45,653 nucleotides of DNA from NCBI GenBank assembly GCA_018673215.1, contig JABHDE010000031.1, positions 1-45,653 of the forward strand. The letters are read 5' to 3'. This DNA is from Formosa sp. Its GTDB lineage: Bacteria > Bacteroidota > Bacteroidia > Flavobacteriales > Flavobacteriaceae. The position numbers and the translations under genes were made by a program. This document shows positions 17,974-26,830 of this stretch, piece by piece; positions within the stretch are counted from its first letter, which is position 1; the number at the start of each line of letters is the position of its first letter. The notes under the pieces were generated by a model. The model was not told where the DNA came from. It did no database searches and worked only from the letters and a program-made list of their open reading frames with translations.

Positions 17974-18786
17974 ATGCAAAATTTTCCTAAACTCGGACTT
18001 CCTATAATTTTTTTAATTGGAGCAATTGTAATTTTAATTTCTAAAACAGCGGTAACAATCGGACCTGGTGAAGGTGGTGTGTTATTTGAGCGTTTTGGAG
18101 ACGGTATTGATACTGAACAAACATACGGAGAAGGGTTTCATATAGTGGCGCCTTGGAATAGTATGTTAATTCACAAAGTGAGACAACAATCAATTTCTGA
18201 TGAAATGAATGTTCTTTCTGTGAATGGACTTGAAGTGAAAGTAAATGGTACGATATGGTACGAACCTGAATACGAAAATCTTGGAAACTTGATCAAAACA
18301 AAAGGGGAGGATTATGAAAATGAACTTTTAGGCCCTGCTGTCAATGCTGCTGCAAGAAGCGTTGTTGGACGTTATACTCCAGAACAATTATATTCTAGCA
18401 AACGTGATGTCATCGAACAAGAAATTCTTGACGAAGTAGTAAATTTATTAAATGGTCAGTTTTTAGTTGTGAAACGTGTTCTAGTAGAAGATGTAAAACT
18501 TCCAAACACCATTAAAAATGCGATTGAGAGTAAATTAAAGCAAGAGCAAGAATCTTTAGAATATGAATTTAGATTAGTGACTGCCGATAAAGAAGCTCAA
18601 AAAGTACGTATTGAAGCACAAGGAAAAGCCGATGCCAACAGAATTTTAAGTGCTTCTTTGAACGATCGTATCCTTCAAGATAAAGGAATTGAAGCGACTG
18701 TTAAGTTATCTGAATCTTCGAACAGTAAAGTCATTGTTATTGGCTCAGGAAAAACTGGCTTACCAATTATTTTAGGAAATCAGTAA
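17974..18786 (+). CDS. SPFH/prohibitin family membrane protein
   Basis: A 270-residue protein with one N-terminal membrane helix (about 8-27) followed by the SPFH (PHB) domain: VTIGPGEGGVLFERFGDGIDTEQTYGEGFHIVAPWNSM. A charged helical region follows (about 185-220: KLKQEQESLEYEFRLVTADKEAQKVRIEAQGKADANR), as in prohibitin and HflK/C proteins, which form rings around membrane proteases. No FtsH-type protease is next to it. It is downstream of the VWA protein with 18 bases between them, and upstream of the his leader, where transcription probably starts anew. Confidence 0.88.
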   Translation: MQNFPKLGLPIIFLIGAIVILISKTAVTIGPGEGGVLFERFGDGIDTEQTYGEGFHIVAPWNSMLIHKVRQQSISDEMNVLSVNGLEVKVNGTIWYEPEYENLGNLIKTKGEDYENELLGPAVNAAARSVVGRYTPEQLYSSKRDVIEQEILDEVVNLLNGQFLVVKRVLVEDVKLPNTIKNAIESKLKQEQESLEYEFRLVTADKEAQKVRIEAQGKADANRILSASLNDRILQDKGIEATVKLSESSNSKVIVIGSGKTGLPIILGNQ

Positions 18787-18899
18787 ATTTTAGATATTAG
18801 ATAGTTTTAACGACTCTAATTTATGAAATCAATAATTCTTATTAATATGTTAGGTTTAGAGTATTTATTTTCTGAATATTTGCACTCAATAATTAAATA

Positions 18900-18956
18900 A
18901 TGATTTTTATAGCGATCCATCATCATCACTTTTTAACTGGCCATCAAGCGAGGTAA
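18900..18956 (+). CDS. hisL: Histidine operon leader peptide
   Basis: Short coding region not long enough for ordinary gene calling. It begins with ATG and encodes MIFIAIHHHHFLTGHQAR followed by TAA: 18 residues, with four consecutive histidine codons (18918-18929) and a fifth at 18942-18944. It sits 32 bases upstream of a perfect terminator hairpin that precedes hisG. This is the arrangement of a transcription attenuator: when charged tRNA-His is scarce the ribosome stalls on the His codons and the downstream hairpin is prevented from forming. That the peptide is translated is an inference; the histidine run and position are seen directly. Confidence 0.9.
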   Translation: MIFIAIHHHHFLTGHQAR

Positions 18957-18988
18957 GGTTGTGTAGGATACTATTTAAAACTATATAT

Positions 18989-19021
18989 AGACCCGTTTGA
19001 GAAATCAAACGGGTCTTTTTT
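18989..19021 (+). terminator. Attenuator terminator of the his operon
   Basis: AGACCCGTTTGA (18989-19000) pairs perfectly with TCAAACGGGTCT (19005-19016) around a GAAA tetraloop, followed by a six-T run (19016-19021). It ends 17 bases before the hisG ATG and begins 32 after the leader stop codon. A competing structure may form between GGTTGTGTAG (18957-18966) and 18981-18993, imperfectly, which would sequester the left arm; that antiterminator is an inference. Confidence 0.92.
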
Positions 19022-19038
19022 ATACTAAATAACAAAAA

Positions 19039-19896
19039 ATGAAAACTTTAAAAATTGCAGTGCAGAAGTCAGGACGTCTTAAAGACGATTCCATGAAACT
19101 GTTGAAAGATATTGGAATCTCTATAGACAATGGAAAAGATCAGCTCAAAGCCACGGCTACTAATTTTCCCGTTGAAGTTTTTTACCTTCGAAATGGTGAC
19201 ATCCCACAGTACCTAAAAGATGGAGTTGTAGATGCAGCAATTATTGGAAACAATGTGCTTGTTGAAAAAGGTAACACTATTGAATACATTTCTAAGCTTG
19301 GATTTTCAAAGTGCAGAGTTTCCATTGCGGTTCCAAAAACCATGGAATACAACTCCCTCGAAGATTTGAATGGAAAACAAATTGCGACCTCTTACCCTAA
19401 TACTGTCAATGCTTTTTTAGAGGAACATAATATCTCTGCGAGCATACATGTCATTAATGGTTCCGTTGAAATAGCACCTAATATTGGATTAGCAGAAGCC
19501 ATCGTTGACATCGTTTCTACGGGAGGAACATTGTTTAAAAATAACTTGGTTGAAAAAGAAGTAATCTTAAAATCGGAAGCTGTTTTGGCAGTCTCACCAA
19601 CTATAGATGAGGCTCAAAAAGCAATTTTAGATAAAGTTAAATTTCGTATAGAAGCTGTTCTTAAAGGACAGTCCTCAAAATATGTACTGCTCAATGCTCC
19701 AAATAATAGTTTAGAAGCTATCATTAATCTTTTACCGGGGATGAAAAGCCCAACCGTTCTCCCGTTAGCAGAATCGGGGTGGAGTTCTGTGCACAGTGTA
19801 ATTGATAAAAACCAATTTTGGAATATTATTGATGATTTAAAAGACTTAGGAGCACAAGGCATCTTGATATGCCCAATCGAAAAAATGGTACTCTAA
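19039..19896 (+). CDS. hisG: ATP phosphoribosyltransferase (long form)
   Basis: First and feedback-regulated step of histidine synthesis, joining ATP and PRPP. At 285 residues this is the long form with a C-terminal ACT-like regulatory domain (about 215-285), so it should not need HisZ. Motifs: KIAVQKSGRLKDDSMKLL at the start, GVVDAAIIGNNVL, and the PRPP-binding LAEAIVDIVSTGGTLFKNNL. The C-terminal domain includes LPGMKSPTVLPLAESGWSSVH, typical of the His-binding regulatory part. It opens the operon after the attenuator; its stop codon TAA overlaps the hisD ATG in TAATG. Confidence 0.96.
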   Translation: MKTLKIAVQKSGRLKDDSMKLLKDIGISIDNGKDQLKATATNFPVEVFYLRNGDIPQYLKDGVVDAAIIGNNVLVEKGNTIEYISKLGFSKCRVSIAVPKTMEYNSLEDLNGKQIATSYPNTVNAFLEEHNISASIHVINGSVEIAPNIGLAEAIVDIVSTGGTLFKNNLVEKEVILKSEAVLAVSPTIDEAQKAILDKVKFRIEAVLKGQSSKYVLLNAPNNSLEAIINLLPGMKSPTVLPLAESGWSSVHSVIDKNQFWNIIDDLKDLGAQGILICPIEKMVL

Positions 19897-21194
19897 TGGA
19901 ATCTCTTGTTAAATATCCCTCCCAATCTACTTGGGAAACAATACTTCAACGTCCCACACAGCCCGTGGAAACTATTGAAGCTATCGTAAACGAGGTCTTT
20001 TTGGCAGTCAAACAAAAAGGAGATATCGCTATTGCACAGTATACAAAACGATTTGATAAGGTAGATTTAAAAACTCTTTTTGTATCTCAAGAAGAAATTA
20101 AGACCGCATCAGATTTGGTTTCAAAAGATTTGAAAGTAGCCATTCAACAAGCCAAGTCCAATATTGAGGTCTTTCACAACGCCCAAAAAACTCCGAAAGT
20201 TGATATTGAAACGCAACAAGGGGTGCGTTGTTGGCAAGAAAAACGCCCTATTGAAACTGTCGGTTTGTACATTCCTGGTGGAACAGCACCCTTGTTTTCT
20301 ACAGTATTGATGCTTGCTGTACCCGCAACCCTAGCAGGGTGTAAAAACATTGTCTTATGTACCCCTCCAAATTCTCAAGGAGCTATTGCAAACGAAATTC
20401 TCTATACAGCAGATTTATGTGGGGTTACAACTATTCTCAAAGTAGGAGGGATTCAAGCGATTGCAGGGATGACCTTTGAAACATCGTCTATCCCTAAAGT
20501 GTCTAAGATATTTGGCCCAGGCAATCAATACGTGACTGTTGCCAAACAACTGGCTACCAAATTTGGGGTCGCTATCGATATGCCAGCAGGTCCAAGTGAA
20601 CTTCTGATTATGGCCGATAAATATGCCAACCCCGCATTCATCGCTTCAGATTTATTAAGTCAGGCAGAACACGGAATAGATAGTCAGGTTGTGTTGGTAT
20701 CAACAGATGAGAAATTACTTTTAGAGACAGCCGATCAATTACGGATTCAAACAAAACTATTAGATCGTAAATCGATCATTGAAAAAGCTCTTGAAAACAA
20801 GAAACTGATTTTGGTTGCTTCTGATCAAGAAGCGGTTGATTTAATTAATTTTTATGGACCAGAACATTATATTATTTGTACTGAGAATAACTCTTTTTTT
20901 GTTGACAAGGTCATCAATGCGGGTTCTGTGTTTATAGGGAAATATACTCCTGAAAGCGCTGGAGATTATGCTTCTGGAACCAATCATACCTTACCGACAA
21001 ATGGCTATGCAAAAGCATATTCGGGAGTGAATTTAGATAGTTTTTTGAAAAATATCACTTTTCAAGAAATCACTAAAGAAGGCTTAAAAAATATTGGAAA
21101 TACCATCGAGCTTATGGCAGAAGCTGAAGGATTAATGGCACACAAAAACGCAGTCACAATTCGATTAAAATCTATAGAAAATGGATCTAAATAA
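19896..21194 (+). CDS. hisD: Histidinol dehydrogenase
   Basis: Zinc enzyme catalysing the last two oxidations from histidinol to histidine with NAD. The 432-residue protein has the family blocks PIETVGLYIPGGTAPLFSTVLM, GPGNQYVTVAKQ, DMPAGPSELLIMADKYANP, the zinc/catalytic region LSQAEHGIDSQVVL and FYGPEHYIIC. An alternative upstream ATG at 19869 adds nine residues inside hisG; the ATG at 19896, in a TAATG overlap with the hisG stop, fits the family start and coupled translation. It overlaps hisC by 14 bases. Confidence 0.96.
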   Translation: MESLVKYPSQSTWETILQRPTQPVETIEAIVNEVFLAVKQKGDIAIAQYTKRFDKVDLKTLFVSQEEIKTASDLVSKDLKVAIQQAKSNIEVFHNAQKTPKVDIETQQGVRCWQEKRPIETVGLYIPGGTAPLFSTVLMLAVPATLAGCKNIVLCTPPNSQGAIANEILYTADLCGVTTILKVGGIQAIAGMTFETSSIPKVSKIFGPGNQYVTVAKQLATKFGVAIDMPAGPSELLIMADKYANPAFIASDLLSQAEHGIDSQVVLVSTDEKLLLETADQLRIQTKLLDRKSIIEKALENKKLILVASDQEAVDLINFYGPEHYIICTENNSFFVDKVINAGSVFIGKYTPESAGDYASGTNHTLPTNGYAKAYSGVNLDSFLKNITFQEITKEGLKNIGNTIELMAEAEGLMAHKNAVTIRLKSIENGSK

Positions 21195-22218
21195 TTTAAT
21201 ACGAAAAAACATTCAACAGATGAAAGCCTATTCATCTGCACGCGATGAATACAAAGAGTTCCAAGCGGATATGGTGTTTTTGGATGCCAACGAGAATCCT
21301 TTTGACAATTCCTTAAATAGATATCCAGATCCTCAACAAGCAGCTTTAAAAGCCCTCATTTCTGATCAAAAGGAAGTAGCATTAGATCAAATTCTTTTGG
21401 GCAATGGAAGCGATGAAGTCTTAGATTTAATTTTTAGAGCCTTTTGTGAACCCAATTCAGATAATATTCTAACATTACCTCCGACTTATGGGATGTACGA
21501 CGTCTTGGCAAATTTGAATGCCATTGAGAATATACAAGTGCCTTTGTCATCAGATTTTCAAATAGAGGTTGATTTGGTTATAGAAAACATAAAACCAAAT
21601 ACTAAATTATTATTTATATGTTCGCCAAACAATCCATCTGGAAACACCGTTGATCGTAGTGCCATAGAACGTCTTTTAAAAGCATTTAATGGATTGATTG
21701 TTATCGACGAAGCTTATATTGATTTTACAGAAGAAACCAGTTGGACACAGTTTCTAAATGTGTATCCTAATTTAATTGTGGTGCAAACTCTTTCTAAGGC
21801 TTATGGTTTGGCAGGGATTCGACTGGGGATTTGTTATGCATCTAAAGAAATTATTGCAGTATTAAATAAAATCAAGCCGCCGTATAACGTCAATACGCTT
21901 ACACAAGAAGCAGCAGTGAAAGCCCTCCATAATAAGGATGTGGTTTCTGATCAAATAGCTTCCATTTTAAATGAGCGCATCAGATTAAAAAAAGCTTTAA
22001 CAGCTTATTCATTTATTAAAAAAATATACCCTTCGGAAGCGAATTTCTTTTTAATTAAAGTGGATGATGCCAACAAACGTTACGATGAACTTATTAAAAA
22101 TGGCATCGTTGTCAGAAACCGAAGCTCACAATTGCATTGTGATAATTGCTTAAGAATCACGGTGGGATCGCCTTCTGAAAACACACAATTATTAACCTTA
22201 TTAAAGACTTTAAAATGA
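21181..22218 (+). CDS. hisC: Histidinol-phosphate aminotransferase
   Basis: PLP-dependent class II aminotransferase converting imidazole acetol-phosphate to histidinol phosphate. The 345 residues show [19 protein letters not shown] near the start, [16 protein letters not shown], the [10 protein letters not shown] block, VIDEAYIDF, the PLP lysine K206 in [14 protein letters not shown], and the arginine in CLRITVG near the end. It is translationally coupled to hisD (14-base overlap) and to hisB (ATGA overlap). Confidence 0.96.
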
Positions 22219-23351
22219 AGCCTGTATTATTTATAGATCGTGATGGAACTATCATCCGTGAACCTGCAGATGAACAAATAGATTCCTTTGAGAAATTAGA
22301 ATTCTATCCGGATGTATTTTCTAATTTAAAAAAAATCTGTCAAGAATTGGATTTTGAAATTGTCATGATTACCAATCAAGATGGTTTGGGAACGGAAGTC
22401 TATCCAGAAAACACCTTTTGGCCGGTTCATAATTTTATCCTTGATACCTTTAAAAATGAAGGCATTATTTTTGAAAAACAATTCATCGATCGCACCTTTG
22501 CAAAAGACAATGCACCGACTCGAAAACCTCAAACAGGATTATTAACGGAGTATTTTACCGAAGCCTACGATTTAGAAAATTCTTTTGTGATTGGGGATCG
22601 GCTAACAGATATAGAACTGGCTAAAAATTTAGGTTGTAAAGGAATTTTTATTAATGATGAAACCCATTTAGGAGTCAATGAGATTTCAGTTAAAAAGGAT
22701 GAATTAACGTCATTTATTGCCTTAGAAACAAACCGTTGGGACGTCATTTATGAATTTCTTAAAGCGAAGCAACGCGTCCAATCTATTGAGAGAAACACCA
22801 ACGAAACAAAGATTGCGATTACATTAAATTTAGACGGCAAAGGTCAAAGTAAAATTGACACTGGAATTGCGTTTTTTGATCACATGTTAGACCAAATAGC
22901 AAGGCACGGTCAAATGGATTTAGATATTAAGGTGAAAGGCGATTTAGAAGTTGATGAACACCACACTATCGAAGATACTGCGATAGCTTTAGGGAATTTA
23001 TTCCATACTGCCTTAGGTTCAAAATTAGGCATTGAACGCTATGGTTTTTGCTTGCCAATGGACGATTGTTTGGCGCAAGTCGCCATTGATTTTGGGGGTA
23101 GAAACTGGCTCGTTTGGGAAGCCGATTTTAAACGTGAATATGTCGGTAAAATGCCCACTGAAATGTTTATGCACTTTTTTAAATCCTTTACAGATGGGGC
23201 AAAGTGTAATTTAAACATCAAAGCTAACGGCAGCAATGAGCATCACAAAATAGAAGCGATTTTTAAAGCCTTTGCTAAAGCCATCAAAATGGCGGTCAAA
23301 CGCGACGTGAATAAAATGATTTTACCATCAACCAAAGGAACTTTAGAATAA
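22215..23351 (+). CDS. hisB: Bifunctional histidinol-phosphatase / imidazoleglycerol-phosphate dehydratase
   Basis: Two enzymes in one chain of 378 residues, as in E. coli. Residues 1 to about 170 are a HAD-family phosphatase with nucleophile D8 and acid D10 in [12 protein letters not shown], and a later [14 protein letters not shown] motif. Residues about 190-378 are the dehydratase, with its metal-binding histidine motifs [22 protein letters not shown] and [12 protein letters not shown]. The fusion supplies the phosphatase step, so no separate hisN is needed. The hisH ATG follows immediately after the stop codon. Confidence 0.96.
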
Positions 23352-23933
23352 ATGAATGTCATTATAATCGATTACGGTGCTGGGAATATTCAGAGTATTC
23401 AATTTGCGTTTCAGCGATTGGGAGTTCATGCCAAACTCTCGAATTCTGTAGAGGAAATTCTTAAAGCAGATAAGGTCATTTTTCCTGGTGTTGGCGAAGC
23501 CAGTCAAGCGATGGAAATGTTGAAGAAATCAAAGTTAGACCTCTTAATTCCAACCCTCAAACAAGATGTGCTCGGAATTTGTTTGGGAATGCAATTGTTA
23601 TGTAAGCATTCCGAAGAAGGCGATACCAATGGGCTTGGTGTTTTTGATGTAGATGTCAAACGGTTTTCAAATGCTGTTAAAGTTCCACATATGGGCTGGA
23701 ATACCATTCAAAATTTGGAATCTGGATTATTAAAGAGCATACCTGAAAACAGTTATATGTACTCTGTACATAGTTATTATGCTGATCTTGGTTCACAAAC
23801 CATCGCAAGTTCAACTTATGAACATGAGTTTTCGGCTGTTTTACAATCTGATAATTTTTATGGAGTTCAATTTCACCCTGAAAAAAGCAGTAAAGACGGA
23901 GCTCAATTATTACAAAACTTTTTAAACTTATAG
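23352..23933 (+). CDS. hisH: Imidazole glycerol phosphate synthase, glutaminase subunit
   Basis: Class I glutamine amidotransferase that feeds ammonia to HisF. The 193-residue protein has [18 protein letters not shown] at the start, the nucleophile C77 in [10 protein letters not shown], the PHMGWN motif, and the His-Glu pair in [10 protein letters not shown]. Stop codon of hisB and start of hisH abut exactly. It must act with HisF, encoded two genes downstream. Confidence 0.96.
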
Positions 23934-23934
23934 T

Positions 23935-24663
23935 ATGCGAATTATACCTGCAATAGATCTAATCAATGGACAATGTGTACGCCTGACCAAAGGTGATTAC
24001 AGCACAAAAAAAGTCTATAATGAAAATCCATTAGAAGTTGCTAAAATGTTTGAAGACGTCGGCATCGAACATCTACACCTAGTAGATTTGGACGGTGCTA
24101 AAGCGAAACACATCATCAATCATAAAATTTTAGAAAGCATTGCCAATAAAACGAATCTAAAGGTTGATTTTGGAGGCGGGTTAAAATCCGACGAGGATTT
24201 GAACATAGCCTTTAATTCTGGTGCAAATCAGATCACAGGAGGGAGTATTGCGGTTAAAAATCCATCACAGTTTTTAAACTGGTTGGAAACCTATGGTGCA
24301 GATAAAATTATATTAGGAGCAGACTGCTTGGATCAAAAAATTGCGATTCAAGGATGGCAGGAGGAAAGCGATAAAGAAGTCCTTAGCTTTATAAAGGACT
24401 ATGTGTCCAAAGGAGTGTCTTATGTGATTTGTACAGACATCGCTAAAGACGGAATGTTACAAGGACCTTCCTTTGATTTATATAAAACGATTTTGAACAG
24501 CATCAACCCTGTAAAGCTCATTGCATCAGGGGGTATTTCAACCTTTGATGAGTTGCCAAAATTAGCTGATTTGGGTTGTGAAGGTGTCATTATTGGAAAG
24601 GCCATTTACGAAGGAAATATGAGTCTTAAACAATTAGAAACCTATCAACTCAATCAATCTTAG
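23935..24663 (+). CDS. hisA: Phosphoribosylformimino-AICAR isomerase
   Basis: TIM-barrel isomerase of histidine synthesis, with the duplicated half-barrel structure shared with HisF. The 242 residues include [18 protein letters not shown] at the N terminus (catalytic aspartate in AIDL), [20 protein letters not shown], the second-half catalytic aspartate region [18 protein letters not shown] and the phosphate site ASGGIST. It starts one base after hisH ends and ends two bases before hisF. Confidence 0.96.
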
Positions 24664-24665
24664 TT

Positions 24666-25421
24666 ATGTTAGCCAAACGAATTATTCCTTGTTTAGATAT
24701 TAAAAATGGGCGGACGGTCAAAGGGGTCAATTTTTTAAACCTTAGAGATGCAGGCGATCCCGTTGCCTTGGCAAAACAATATGCTGAAAACGGAGCGGAT
24801 GAATTGGTGTTTTTAGATATTTCAGCGACTTTAGAGTCACGCTCGACCACTATAGAAATGGTTCGGAATGTGGCAGAACAAATAGACACTCCGTTTACTG
24901 TGGGCGGCGGTGTGAGCACTAGAGATGGAGTTGAATTGCTTTTGAAATCTGGAGCAGATAAGGTATGTGTGAATTCGGCGGCGATCAAACGTCCAGAGCT
25001 GATTAACGAACTTTCGAAAGCCTTCGGAAACCAGTGTATAGTGGTGGCTATTGATGCTAAGGAAGTGGATGGAAAATGGTTGGTGCATTTGGCAGGCGGT
25101 ACCATTCCGACAGAATTAGATTTATTTGAATGGGCTAAAGAAGTAGAAACTCGGGGAGCTGGTGAAATCCTATTTACATCGATGAATAATGACGGTGTCA
25201 AAACAGGCTTTGCAAATGAAGCCTTGGCACAATTGTCAGAAACAGTCAATATCCCGATTATTGCATCTGGAGGAGCTGGAACCATGCGGCATTTTGTGGA
25301 TGTTTTTAAAGAAGGAAAAGCAGATGCAGCCTTGGCAGCCAGTGTATTTCATTTCGGTGAAATTGCCATAAACGATTTAAAACAAGAATTACAATCAAAT
25401 AAAATAAACATACGACTCTAA
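24666..25421 (+). CDS. hisF: Imidazole glycerol phosphate synthase, cyclase subunit
   Basis: TIM-barrel cyclase that uses HisH-derived ammonia to form IGP and AICAR. The 251 residues carry [19 protein letters not shown] (catalytic aspartate in CLD), [21 protein letters not shown], the second aspartate region [11 protein letters not shown] and the phosphate site ASGGAGT. Its stop codon overlaps the hisIE ATG by one base in TAATG. Confidence 0.96.
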
Positions 25422-26011
25422 TGGATATCAAGTATAACAGTGAAGGATTAATTCCTGCAATCATTCAAGATGCAAATACAAAAACCGTTTTGATGCTCGG
25501 CTATATGAATACCGAAGCGGTTGCCAAAACTTTGGAAACACAAAAGGTGACTTTTTTTAGTCGTAGTAAACAACGCCTCTGGACAAAAGGGGAGGAGAGT
25601 GGAAATTTTCTAAGCTTCAAAAGTTTACAGAATGATTGTGATAACGACACATTGTTGATTCAAGCAAGTCCACATGGACCAACTTGTCACAAAGGAACAG
25701 ATAGCTGCTGGGGAGAATATAATGTTGAATCTTATGGGTTTTTGTCGGAACTCGAAACGATCATTACAGATCGTAAGGAGAATGCATCTTCAGAAACCTC
25801 CTATGTTTCTGAATTGTTTGAGAAGGGGTTAAATAAAATTGCTCAAAAAGTAGGAGAGGAGGCTGTTGAAGTTGTGATTGAAGCCAAAGACGATAACGAT
25901 GAATTGTTTTTAAATGAGAGTGCCGATTTGTTATTTCATTATTTGATTTTATTGCAAGCAAAAGGATTCAAACTCGATGCGGTCATTGACGTTCTAAAAT
26001 CCAGACATTAA
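25421..26011 (+). CDS. hisIE: Bifunctional phosphoribosyl-AMP cyclohydrolase / phosphoribosyl-ATP pyrophosphatase
   Basis: Carries the second and third steps of the pathway in one 196-residue chain. Residues 1 to about 105 are HisI, a zinc cyclohydrolase: MLGYMNTEAVAKTLE, TFFSRSKQRLWTKGEESGN, DCDNDTLLIQ and the cysteine motif GPTCHKGTDSCW. Residues about 110-196 are HisE, an all-alpha MazG-like pyrophosphatase: KIAQKVGEEAVEVVIEAK and ESADLLFHYLILL. It ends the his operon; the truA promoter motif overlaps its stop codon. Confidence 0.96.
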   Translation: MDIKYNSEGLIPAIIQDANTKTVLMLGYMNTEAVAKTLETQKVTFFSRSKQRLWTKGEESGNFLSFKSLQNDCDNDTLLIQASPHGPTCHKGTDSCWGEYNVESYGFLSELETIITDRKENASSETSYVSELFEKGLNKIAQKVGEEAVEVVIEAKDDNDELFLNESADLLFHYLILLQAKGFKLDAVIDVLKSRH

Positions 26012-26016: not shown

Positions 26017-26047
26017 TAACTCTTTGAATAATTACGACCTTGTAGTC

Positions 26048-26830
26048 ATGTTGCAAAAACGTTATTATTATTTAATCAAGGTTCAGTTTTTAGGGTATCG
26101 TTTTCATGGGTGGCAAAAACAACCAAATACCAAAACAATTCATCTAATGATCGATCGTACCTTAAAGTACGTTCTGGGAGATCAAAAATTCAAAACATTA
26201 GGAGCAGGTCGAACCGATGCGATGGTCTCTGCTAATGAAGCAGCGTTTGAGTTGTTTTTAGATAGACAGCCTTTAGAAGATTTAAAGGTATTTCTAGAAC
26301 TATTTAATAAAAACTTACCTCAAGATATCCGTGCTTTGAACATCAAAGAAGTGGATTCGAAATTTAACATTATTCAGGACTCAAAATTAAAAGAATACCA
26401 TTATGTATTTGCGCAGGGGGCCAAATTTCATCCTTTTGCGGCTCCGATAATGACCACCATTTTAGATGCTTTGGATATTGAGTTAATGCAAGAGGGTGCG
26501 AGATTATTTGAGGGTAAACACAACTATAAAACCTATTGCTATAAACCTTCAAATGAAGGGATGTATAACAGAGAACTCATCTGTTGTGAGCTTGTAGAAA
26601 ATACTTTATATACAGCCAGTTTTTTTCCAGAGAAAAGTTATGTTTTAAAAGTCATAGGAAAGGGATTTGGGCGGCATCAAATACGATTGATGATGGGTGC
26701 TTTGATCAAATTGGGTCGTGGAGACATTGATTTGGAATACATAAAAAACAGTTTAAAGGCAGATAATCAAGAAGTGATGGATTATATCGCGCCTGCTTCG
26801 GGCTTGATTTTACATAAGGTTGAATTTTAA
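26048..26830 (+). CDS. truA: tRNA pseudouridine synthase A family protein
   Basis: Forms pseudouridine in the anticodon arm of tRNAs (positions 38-40 in E. coli TruA). The 260-residue protein has QFLGYRFHGWQKQPN at the start, the catalytic aspartate D57 in GAGRTDAMVSA, the KEYHYVFA block and GKGFGRHQIRLMMGALIKLGRG near the end. An in-frame TTG at 26024 would add eight residues, but the ATG at 26048 fits the family better and the promoter motif lies close upstream. Sequence is somewhat diverged (YHYVFA rather than the commoner YRYRI), so a second truA elsewhere is possible. Confidence 0.85.
   Translation: MLQKRYYYLIKVQFLGYRFHGWQKQPNTKTIHLMIDRTLKYVLGDQKFKTLGAGRTDAMVSANEAAFELFLDRQPLEDLKVFLELFNKNLPQDIRALNIKEVDSKFNIIQDSKLKEYHYVFAQGAKFHPFAAPIMTTILDALDIELMQEGARLFEGKHNYKTYCYKPSNEGMYNRELICCELVENTLYTASFFPEKSYVLKVIGKGFGRHQIRLMMGALIKLGRGDIDLEYIKNSLKADNQEVMDYIAPASGLILHKVEF

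Follow-up and report, generated by a model that had tools for sequence, protein, structure and literature searches.

In E. coli and Salmonella, the his leader region encodes a peptide with a run of His residues before hisG, and its competing helices lead up to an intrinsic terminator that precedes the structural genes. Ribosome-mediated attenuation of this kind needs a leading ribosome that keeps pace with RNA polymerase. Candidate leader-peptide attenuators were reportedly also noted in Bacteroidetes/Chlorobi by Vitreschak et al. in 2004. According to the accessible part of a 2010 paper, none had to its authors' knowledge been shown outside Proteobacteria and Actinobacteria (PMC2965389). In their available portions, PMC4833913 mentions Bacteroidetes only for leader-gene distances, PMC8305728, on the his genes of this superphylum, leaves leaders unmentioned and names attenuation once, in its introduction, and PMC7366714 describes leader-like short frames in Bacteroides with no mention of hisG. 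In Flavobacterium psychrophilum, structured 5' transcript regions were reported upstream of pheA, hisG and other genes; these elements were found in other Flavobacteriaceae genera without Rfam hits. The same account describes strong signs that amino-acid operons are attenuated by way of leader peptides, and its accessible part contains no leader sequence, antiterminator or test (PMC9723704). The F. psychrophilum hisG element is very probably the same as the one described here. A dissected his attenuator in Bacteroidota did not appear, by title or start of abstract, among the literature matches listed, in which subscription journals are little covered. The mechanism, which is very probably ribosome-mediated, is a known one that has been noticed in this phylum before but not worked out in the accessible literature; the antiterminator, the breadth of occurrence and a TruA-like (HisT) gene at the operon end are new.

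The window, which is the whole 45,653-nt stretch of Formosa sp. DNA that was analysed, belongs to a draft assembly whose 78 contigs total 1.94 Mb (completeness 90.88%, contamination 7.83%), and Flavobacteriaceae MAGs were its nearest named relatives among the matches listed. The hisG gene (NCBIfam TIGR00070, 5.4e-55; ATG at 19039) is followed by hisD, hisC, a bifunctional hisB, hisH, hisA, hisF and hisIE, all of which scored above curated cut-offs. We consider, with a probability of about 0.9, that this operon is controlled by a ribosome-mediated transcription attenuator; the sequence and the computed folds show which parts it has, that they are conserved and where they overlap, and we infer that the ribosome stalls, that readthrough follows, in which order the helices fold and that histidine supply is what the switch responds to. 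The sequence-only reading had described an 18-residue frame with four consecutive His codons and a fifth, and we recovered this frame as the peptide MIFIAIHHHHFLTGHQAR (ATG at 18900, TAA at 18954-18956), with the consecutive codons CATCATCATCAC at 18918-18929 and the fifth, CAT, at 18942-18944. Its spacing was likewise confirmed: 32 bases (18957-18988) lie between the leader and a perfect 12-bp stem (18989-19000/19005-19016) with a GAAA loop, and a run of six T (19016-19021), the first of them within the stem, is followed by 17 bases (19022-19038) up to the hisG ATG. The combination of at least four His in six codons with a stem of at least 10 bp has a single occurrence on the + strand of the window and none on the - strand; 100 dinucleotide shuffles of the entire window, each scanned on one strand, did not produce it. 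The fold of 18888-19030 showed a z of -4.48 against 200 shuffles, and the pattern CAYCAYCAYCAY has 16 sites in the window's genome. The features are collected in Table 1.

Table 1. Elements of the putative his attenuator and the operon behind it, in window coordinates.
Feature	Position	Strand	Basis
Bacteroidota-type -7 promoter element AATATTTG, 17 nt before leader ATG	18875-18882	+	relaxed-box scan against shuffles
hisL leader frame, MIFIAIHHHHFLTGHQAR*, with control codons at 18918-18929 and at 18942-18944	18900-18956	+	sequence, conservation
Arm 1, leader codons predicted to form the interrupted helix P1, weak in the window, together with 18955-18979	18904-18932	+	computed folds, conservation; 9/100 window shuffles equal
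Arm 2, predicted 5' arm of antiterminator, TCAAGCG(A)GGT, last leader codons and first stop-codon base	18944-18954	+	window shuffles as good 1/50
Predicted 3' strand of P1, overlaps 5' strand of inner antiterminator helix	18955-18979	+	computed folds
Predicted inner antiterminator helix, 5' strand, partner 18981-18987	18960-18966	+	computed fold
Predicted inner antiterminator helix, 3' strand	18981-18987	+	computed fold
Arm 3, 5' arm of terminator; 18991-19000 doubles as 3' arm of antiterminator	18989-19000	+	stem scan, covariation, folds
Arm 4, 3' arm of terminator (19005-19016) and U run (19016-19021)	19005-19021	+	stem scan, covariation
Controlled operon hisG-hisD-hisC-hisB(NB)-hisH-hisA-hisF-hisIE	19039-26011	+	family matches
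Divergent TruA-like (HisT family) gene, 36 nt 3' of hisIE, possibly cotranscribed	26048-26830	+	TIGR00071 below cut-off

Compared with the E. coli and Salmonella system, the overall design was found to be alike, with a His-run leader before hisG, competing helices and a terminator before the first gene. The gene order, hisGDC(N)BHAFIE, is also the same, according to the available part of PMC8305728. Several differences were present. The leader here contains four consecutive His codons and one more, while the enterobacterial HisL contains seven consecutive ones, as given in the accessible text of PMC7822408. In contrast to the enterobacterial His leader, the region here has no Rfam match. Additionally, the predicted antiterminator arm here is made up of the final codons of the leader together with one base, the first, of its stop codon, unlike in HisL, and the leader appears to be preceded by a Bacteroidota-type promoter box that would leave only a short 5' leader.

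The sequence-only reading had proposed that relatives be compared for a conserved His run, a conserved hairpin and covarying stems. For the order-level comparison, 122 loci were assembled, the window being one of them: 42 upstream regions, taken from a group of 60 genomes (that of the window and 59 relatives) of which 42 have hisG and 18 do not, and 80 named loci, which were the best 80 of at least 541 confirmed and in part belong to the same species as the 42-genome group. A leader was scored when at least three His occurred in six codons of a frame of at most 45 codons within 400 nt upstream. By this rule, all 122 loci carried a His leader, as they also did under a 60-codon limit, and 119 carried a leader together with a terminator, the scan finding no terminator after the leader in the other three (L005, L081 and L122). 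Dinucleotide shuffles yielded a leader in 27 of 1220 cases and the combination in none; the reverse strand gave 1 and 0 of 122. On these counts, the joint presence of leader and terminator before hisG, as judged by sequence, is not due to chance, and the comparison bore out both the conserved His run and the conserved hairpin. The covarying stem was observed as well: on alignment A1 (81 sequences thinned from 123), 7 of the 11 terminator pairs showed changes on both sides, and only 2 of 891 cells were broken or gapped. Outside the His run, the leader sequence differs between families.

A wider class/phylum set of 117 loci was used as well, from which 11 loci without a tblastn alignment to the window's HisG were left out; the 106 loci that were scored include 8 belonging to the same family as the window. 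The three fetched members of family f83, which lies outside the class, were all among the 11 unscored loci, and a further 23 hisG places, 18 of them from f83, are not part of the set. A leader was found in 88 of the 106 loci and a leader with terminator in 56. Among 1060 shuffles these numbers were 24 and 0, and on the reverse strand of the 106 loci they were 3 and 0; the scan found no leader in 18 loci and no simple terminator in 32 of the 88 with a leader. Judged by these scans, the leader is present wherever it was tested at the order level and frequent within the class; outside the class there are such frames too, and the terminator is often missing by scan. In family f89, outside the class (L153-L155, L158, L164, L167, L169-L171, L173, L221 and L228), the leaders often contain several His blocks, for example MNRKNLHTTHLHHGVHHLHQGHHHA; the scan found no simple terminator behind them, and the output mode there may differ. 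One record, titled as a Rhodobacteraceae MAG (L037), has a hisG 91% identical to that of the window and a leader of the same kind, and is probably a mislabelled or mixed bin.

The sequence-only reading had placed an imperfect antiterminator at 18957-18966/18981-18993 and had suggested that the switch may differ from the classical one. This pairing overlaps the inner part of the computed structure (18960-18966/18981-18987), and that portion stood, but the main arm (18944-18954/18991-19000) had been missed. In particular, TCAAGCG-A-GGT in the last leader codons (18944-18954) was predicted to pair with ACC-CGTTTGA (18991-19000) with one bulged A at -12.7 kcal/mol, against -5.7 kcal/mol for the pairing first named, a result that does not support the idea of a weak antiterminator in a non-classical switch; in the models, the switch logic looks classical. 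Arm 2 resembles the 3' arm of the terminator. When a modelled ribosome was placed on each in turn of the window's four consecutive His codons with arm 4 unmade, 18944 onward was left free, and the optimum consisted of arm 2 with arm 3 plus the inner helix. With the ribosome modelled at the stop codon, the terminator alone remained. Without a ribosome, the computed optimum was the antiterminator (-17.1) rather than P1 while arm 4 was unmade, and P1 plus the terminator (-34.5) once it was made; termination without translation would therefore depend on the order of folding. As the window folds of P1 and the antiterminator have 18960-18966 in common, and those of the antiterminator and the terminator have arm 3 in common, the three states are predicted to be mutually exclusive, as in the classical scheme.

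The mechanism that we propose runs as follows. RNA polymerase would start about 10 nt before the leader ATG, as judged from the position of the promoter element. Under ample charged His-tRNA, the ribosome would clear the His codons, reach the stop codon and cover arm 2 (18944-18954), so that arms 3 and 4 could form the terminator. If the leader were not translated at all, P1 would form first and the terminator next. When charged tRNA-His is scarce, the ribosome would stall at 18918-18929, mask the 5' strand of P1 and leave arm 2 free; arm 2 would then pair with arm 3 (18991-19000), extended by 18960-18966/18981-18987, which would block the terminator and allow transcription from hisG onward. 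The fifth His codon (18942) overlaps arm 2, and a stall there would be expected to favour termination.

After identical sequences had been removed, 109 distinct leader-to-terminator sequences remained at the order level, and in 106 of these the best partner of arm 3 has its start 5-20 nt ahead of where the stop codon ends. The best partner was equalled by no more than 2 of 50 shuffles in 84 of the 109 order-level and 28 of the 56 class/phylum sequences, while arm 2 was no better than shuffles (at least 10 of 50) in 10 and 16, respectively. When the ribosome was modelled as stalled on the first His codon while arm 4 was unmade, the leader tail formed at least six pairs with arm 3 in 112 of the 113 distinct loci of CCCGTTTGA type, and likewise at least six in 31 of 52 loci with other terminator types; for a stall at the last His codon, the counts were 92 of 113 and 33 of 52. 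The observed number of pairs was reached by at most 1 of 30 shuffles in 43 (first His) and 27 (last His) of the 113 CCCGTTTGA-type loci, and in 6 and 9 of the 52 others.

Whole-alignment RNAalifold found the terminator only, since competing helices are beyond its reach; P1 and the antiterminator were therefore tested by duplex energies with shuffles, by cross-species permutations and by counts on the named structures. Over 165 distinct sequences, the mean for own partners was -9.03 against -7.33 for cross-species partners in the case of arm 2/arm 3, and -12.35 against -8.93 in the case of P1, neither value being reached in 2000 permutations; such tests are inflated by relatedness, and the advantage of own partners persisted after thinning to 56 distinct arm-3 cores (z of -7.4 for arm 2/arm 3 and -11.7 for P1). 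Within the 113 CCCGTTTGA-type loci, arm 2 was so highly conserved that, with ties counted, the own partner had a median rank of 102 of 113. Other families have a different arm 3, and arm 2 has changed along with it in many (e.g., L137, L145, L180, L117 and L118) and has not in L202, L206, L207 and L216. On A1, 84.7% of the antiterminator cells were paired, which 1 of 500 shuffles equalled, and sliding the register gave 25.8-53.9%. Changes on both sides occurred in 4 of 11 pairs (reached by 54 of 500 shuffles), the covariation score was reached by 4 of 500, and pairs 101-165 and 102-164 failed in 39 and 46 of the 81 sequences; the column covariation of arm 2/arm 3 is modest. The dipeptide QA is common near the leader C-terminus in the window's family, and as its codons carry arm 2, it is best read as a putative RNA constraint.

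As long as arm 3 is still unmade, the leader codons of the window that fall in 18904-18932 were predicted to pair with 18955-18979 to form P1, and 9 of 100 shuffles paired as well. Among 15 loci with leaders of the type of the window's genus, the window included, 14 gave 7-44 of 100 shuffles, and L024 gave 5 of 100. At most 5 of 100 shuffles paired as well in 74 of the 113 CCCGTTTGA-type and 20 of the 52 other loci. P1 is thus supported across the order at large, does not exceed shuffles in the window or in 14 of these 15 loci, and may be marginal in the window's genus. On A1, 78.9% of the P1 cells were paired (0 of 500 shuffles), as compared with 37.2-49.8% when slid, and the covariation score was also reached by 0 of 500. 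Double changes occurred in 10 of 14 pairs, which 109 of 500 shuffles reached, and a slide by +1 gave 56 double-change cells against 38 in the true register.

We also found leaders of corresponding type before other amino-acid operons. Among 30 trpE-like loci from 30 genomes (L256-L285; TIGR00564 matches, none above the cut-off of that family), 27 carried a Trp leader with a terminator, as against 0 of 300 shuffles. In the window's genome (L263, on G000:C37), the WWW leader peptide MNLTLNNTWWWYSRKQNS and a terminator lie just before the trpE-like gene. A leader rich in Phe/Tyr with a terminator was present at 26 of 30 prephenate dehydratase loci, all of them above the Pfam cut-off (shuffles, 0 of 300); under a looser rule that scored Phe alone, 25 of the 30 loci qualified, as did 1 of 300 shuffles. 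The leader rich in Phe and Tyr at L325 and L343 (G000:C66), MTSVNYIFYSFYYFFFKKEIEALYM, precedes a terminator and the Phe/Tyr operon, which in the window's genome comprises prephenate dehydratase, an aminotransferase, prephenate dehydrogenase and a DAHP synthase-chorismate mutase. A mixed leader fits this operon because it has two products, and it is possibly a two-amino-acid sensor. When all leader types were scored at each gene, His, Trp and Phe/Tyr leaders numbered 40, 0 and 1 at 42 hisG loci, 0, 27 and 2 at the 30 trpE loci, and 0, 1 and 26 at the 30 prephenate dehydratase loci; the leader type matches the pathway, and the gene-by-leader matrix is nearly diagonal. The original proposal of leader-peptide attenuation thus draws support from three sides: the near-constant occurrence of leader (122/122) and terminator (119/122), the covariation of the terminator, and the match of leader amino acid to pathway in three operons.

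For ilvD, Ile/Leu/Val leaders are not claimed, as leaders alone were found in 7 of 27 loci and in 61 of 270 shuffles. A candidate leader of this kind with a terminator was seen in 4 of the 27 (L286, L288, L306 and L308), and in 0 of 270 shuffles.

The Bacteroidota -7 consensus is TAnnTTTG. A relaxed box, (T/A/G)AnnTTTG, was present in the 60 nt that precede the leader ATG at 113 of the 122 order-level loci, as against 121 of 610 shuffles; it lay 14-21 nt before the ATG in 106 of the 122, most commonly at 17. A TTG 21 nt upstream of the box was found in 65 of the 113, and in the window the TTG (-33) position reads TAG (18851-18853). The 106 distinct order-level leader frames always start with ATG, which the scan prefers, and end in TGA (52), TAA (46) or TAG (8). 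Their His codons were CAT 409 times and CAC 35 times, compared with 81 to 84 in the first 200 codons of hisG; the preference for CAT may serve the pairing of P1.

Other explanations of the hairpin and the His run were weighed. A terminator-like site is expected somewhere in this region, as shuffles of 3 kb contain about 1.8 each, and the hairpin might merely be the terminator of the upstream Band_7 (SPFH) gene, with a His run arisen by chance. The stem, however, lies far nearer to hisG, 22 nt from its end, than to the SPFH stop, which is 203 nt from its beginning; 113 of the 122 loci have a promoter box ahead of the leader, and the His leader recurs in all 122; the conservation of leader and terminator contradicts such a coincidence, which we regard as extremely unlikely. 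His runs bind metals, and since the frame is conserved, a functional His-rich small protein with an incidental hairpin could also be imagined. In this lineage, however, trp and phe/tyr operons carry Trp and Phe/Tyr leaders with terminators at the corresponding place, so that the leader residue follows the pathway; the sequence outside the His run varies by family, and the common QA is explained by the pairing of arm 2. A metal-binding protein has scarcely any credibility against these observations. It is also very unlikely that histidine is sensed by a tRNA-binding (T-box-like) or protein-binding leader to which the short frame is secondary. T-boxes do control his genes in Firmicutes and Actinobacteria, according to the available part of PMC9413887. 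No Rfam family, however, reached its threshold in the window. RF00514 and RF00230, which we take to be the covariance models of the His leader and the T-box leader, gave no match in the window at the gathering threshold or, within 18780-19120, at E up to 10. The 13 sub-threshold matches obtained in that interval at this E value included neither; PyrR, SSRC10, the trpB motif and ten others were all below their gathering scores and were rejected as chance.

A somewhat less remote, though still quite improbable, alternative is that attenuation acts through the translation of hisG or through Rho rather than by intrinsic termination. The leader-bearing class/phylum loci at which the scan found no simple terminator (32 of 88) are in line with it, and other output modes may therefore exist elsewhere in the phylum; at this locus and in 119 of the 122 order-level loci, by contrast, the stem and U run are present, as intrinsic termination would have it.

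Because ribosome-mediated attenuation needs a ribosome that keeps pace with the polymerase, the conserved switches predict coupled transcription and translation in Bacteroidota, and the leaders are ready-made reporters for testing it. The ribosomes of these flavobacteria are not known to rely on Shine-Dalgarno pairing, and the leaders suggest that very short, probably Shine-Dalgarno-independent frames are translated well. Coupling in Bacteroidota is little discussed in the searchable literature: the accessible text of a review on coupling contains no mention of Bacteroid- (PMC7858274), and in the available part of PMC13323073 Bacteroidota are not listed among the runaway phyla. The short frames found ahead of hisG, of trpE and of the phe/tyr operon can be included in genome annotation, and a new RNA family could be proposed for the element.

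The TruA-like gene behind hisIE is the most surprising lead. Its start was placed at the ATG at 26048, the frame being listed from a TTG at 26024, and the protein, tested from codon 26054, matched TIGR00071 at 1.5e-37 with 129.5 bits, below the cut-off of 142.85. A better-scoring PF01416 gene is located elsewhere in the window's genome, on contig C76. In a table of 30 genomes, from which G052 was left out, a weaker PF01416 gene lay on the same strand at most 12 kb downstream of hisG in at least 17, namely 11 in the window's genus and one in each of six other genera among the matches listed; among these matches it was not so placed in 13, of which at least two (G010 and G016) have hisG near a contig end. 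In enterobacteria, loss of the TruA modification of tRNA-His derepresses his, according to the accessible part of PMC7822408. It is conceivable, though unlikely, that leader-peptide attenuation is standard for flavobacterial his, trp and phe/tyr operons and that, in addition, the gene product acts on the anticodon arm of tRNA-His, either modifying it or competing with TruA, and so sets the speed of the ribosome on the leader His codons. If true, the gene would close a feedback loop within the his operon. A gene of this kind also occurs in G017 and G022, genomes without a detected hisG, and a role in attenuation is for this reason only a possibility. The TruA-like gene has kept a catalytic-looking AGRTDA motif.
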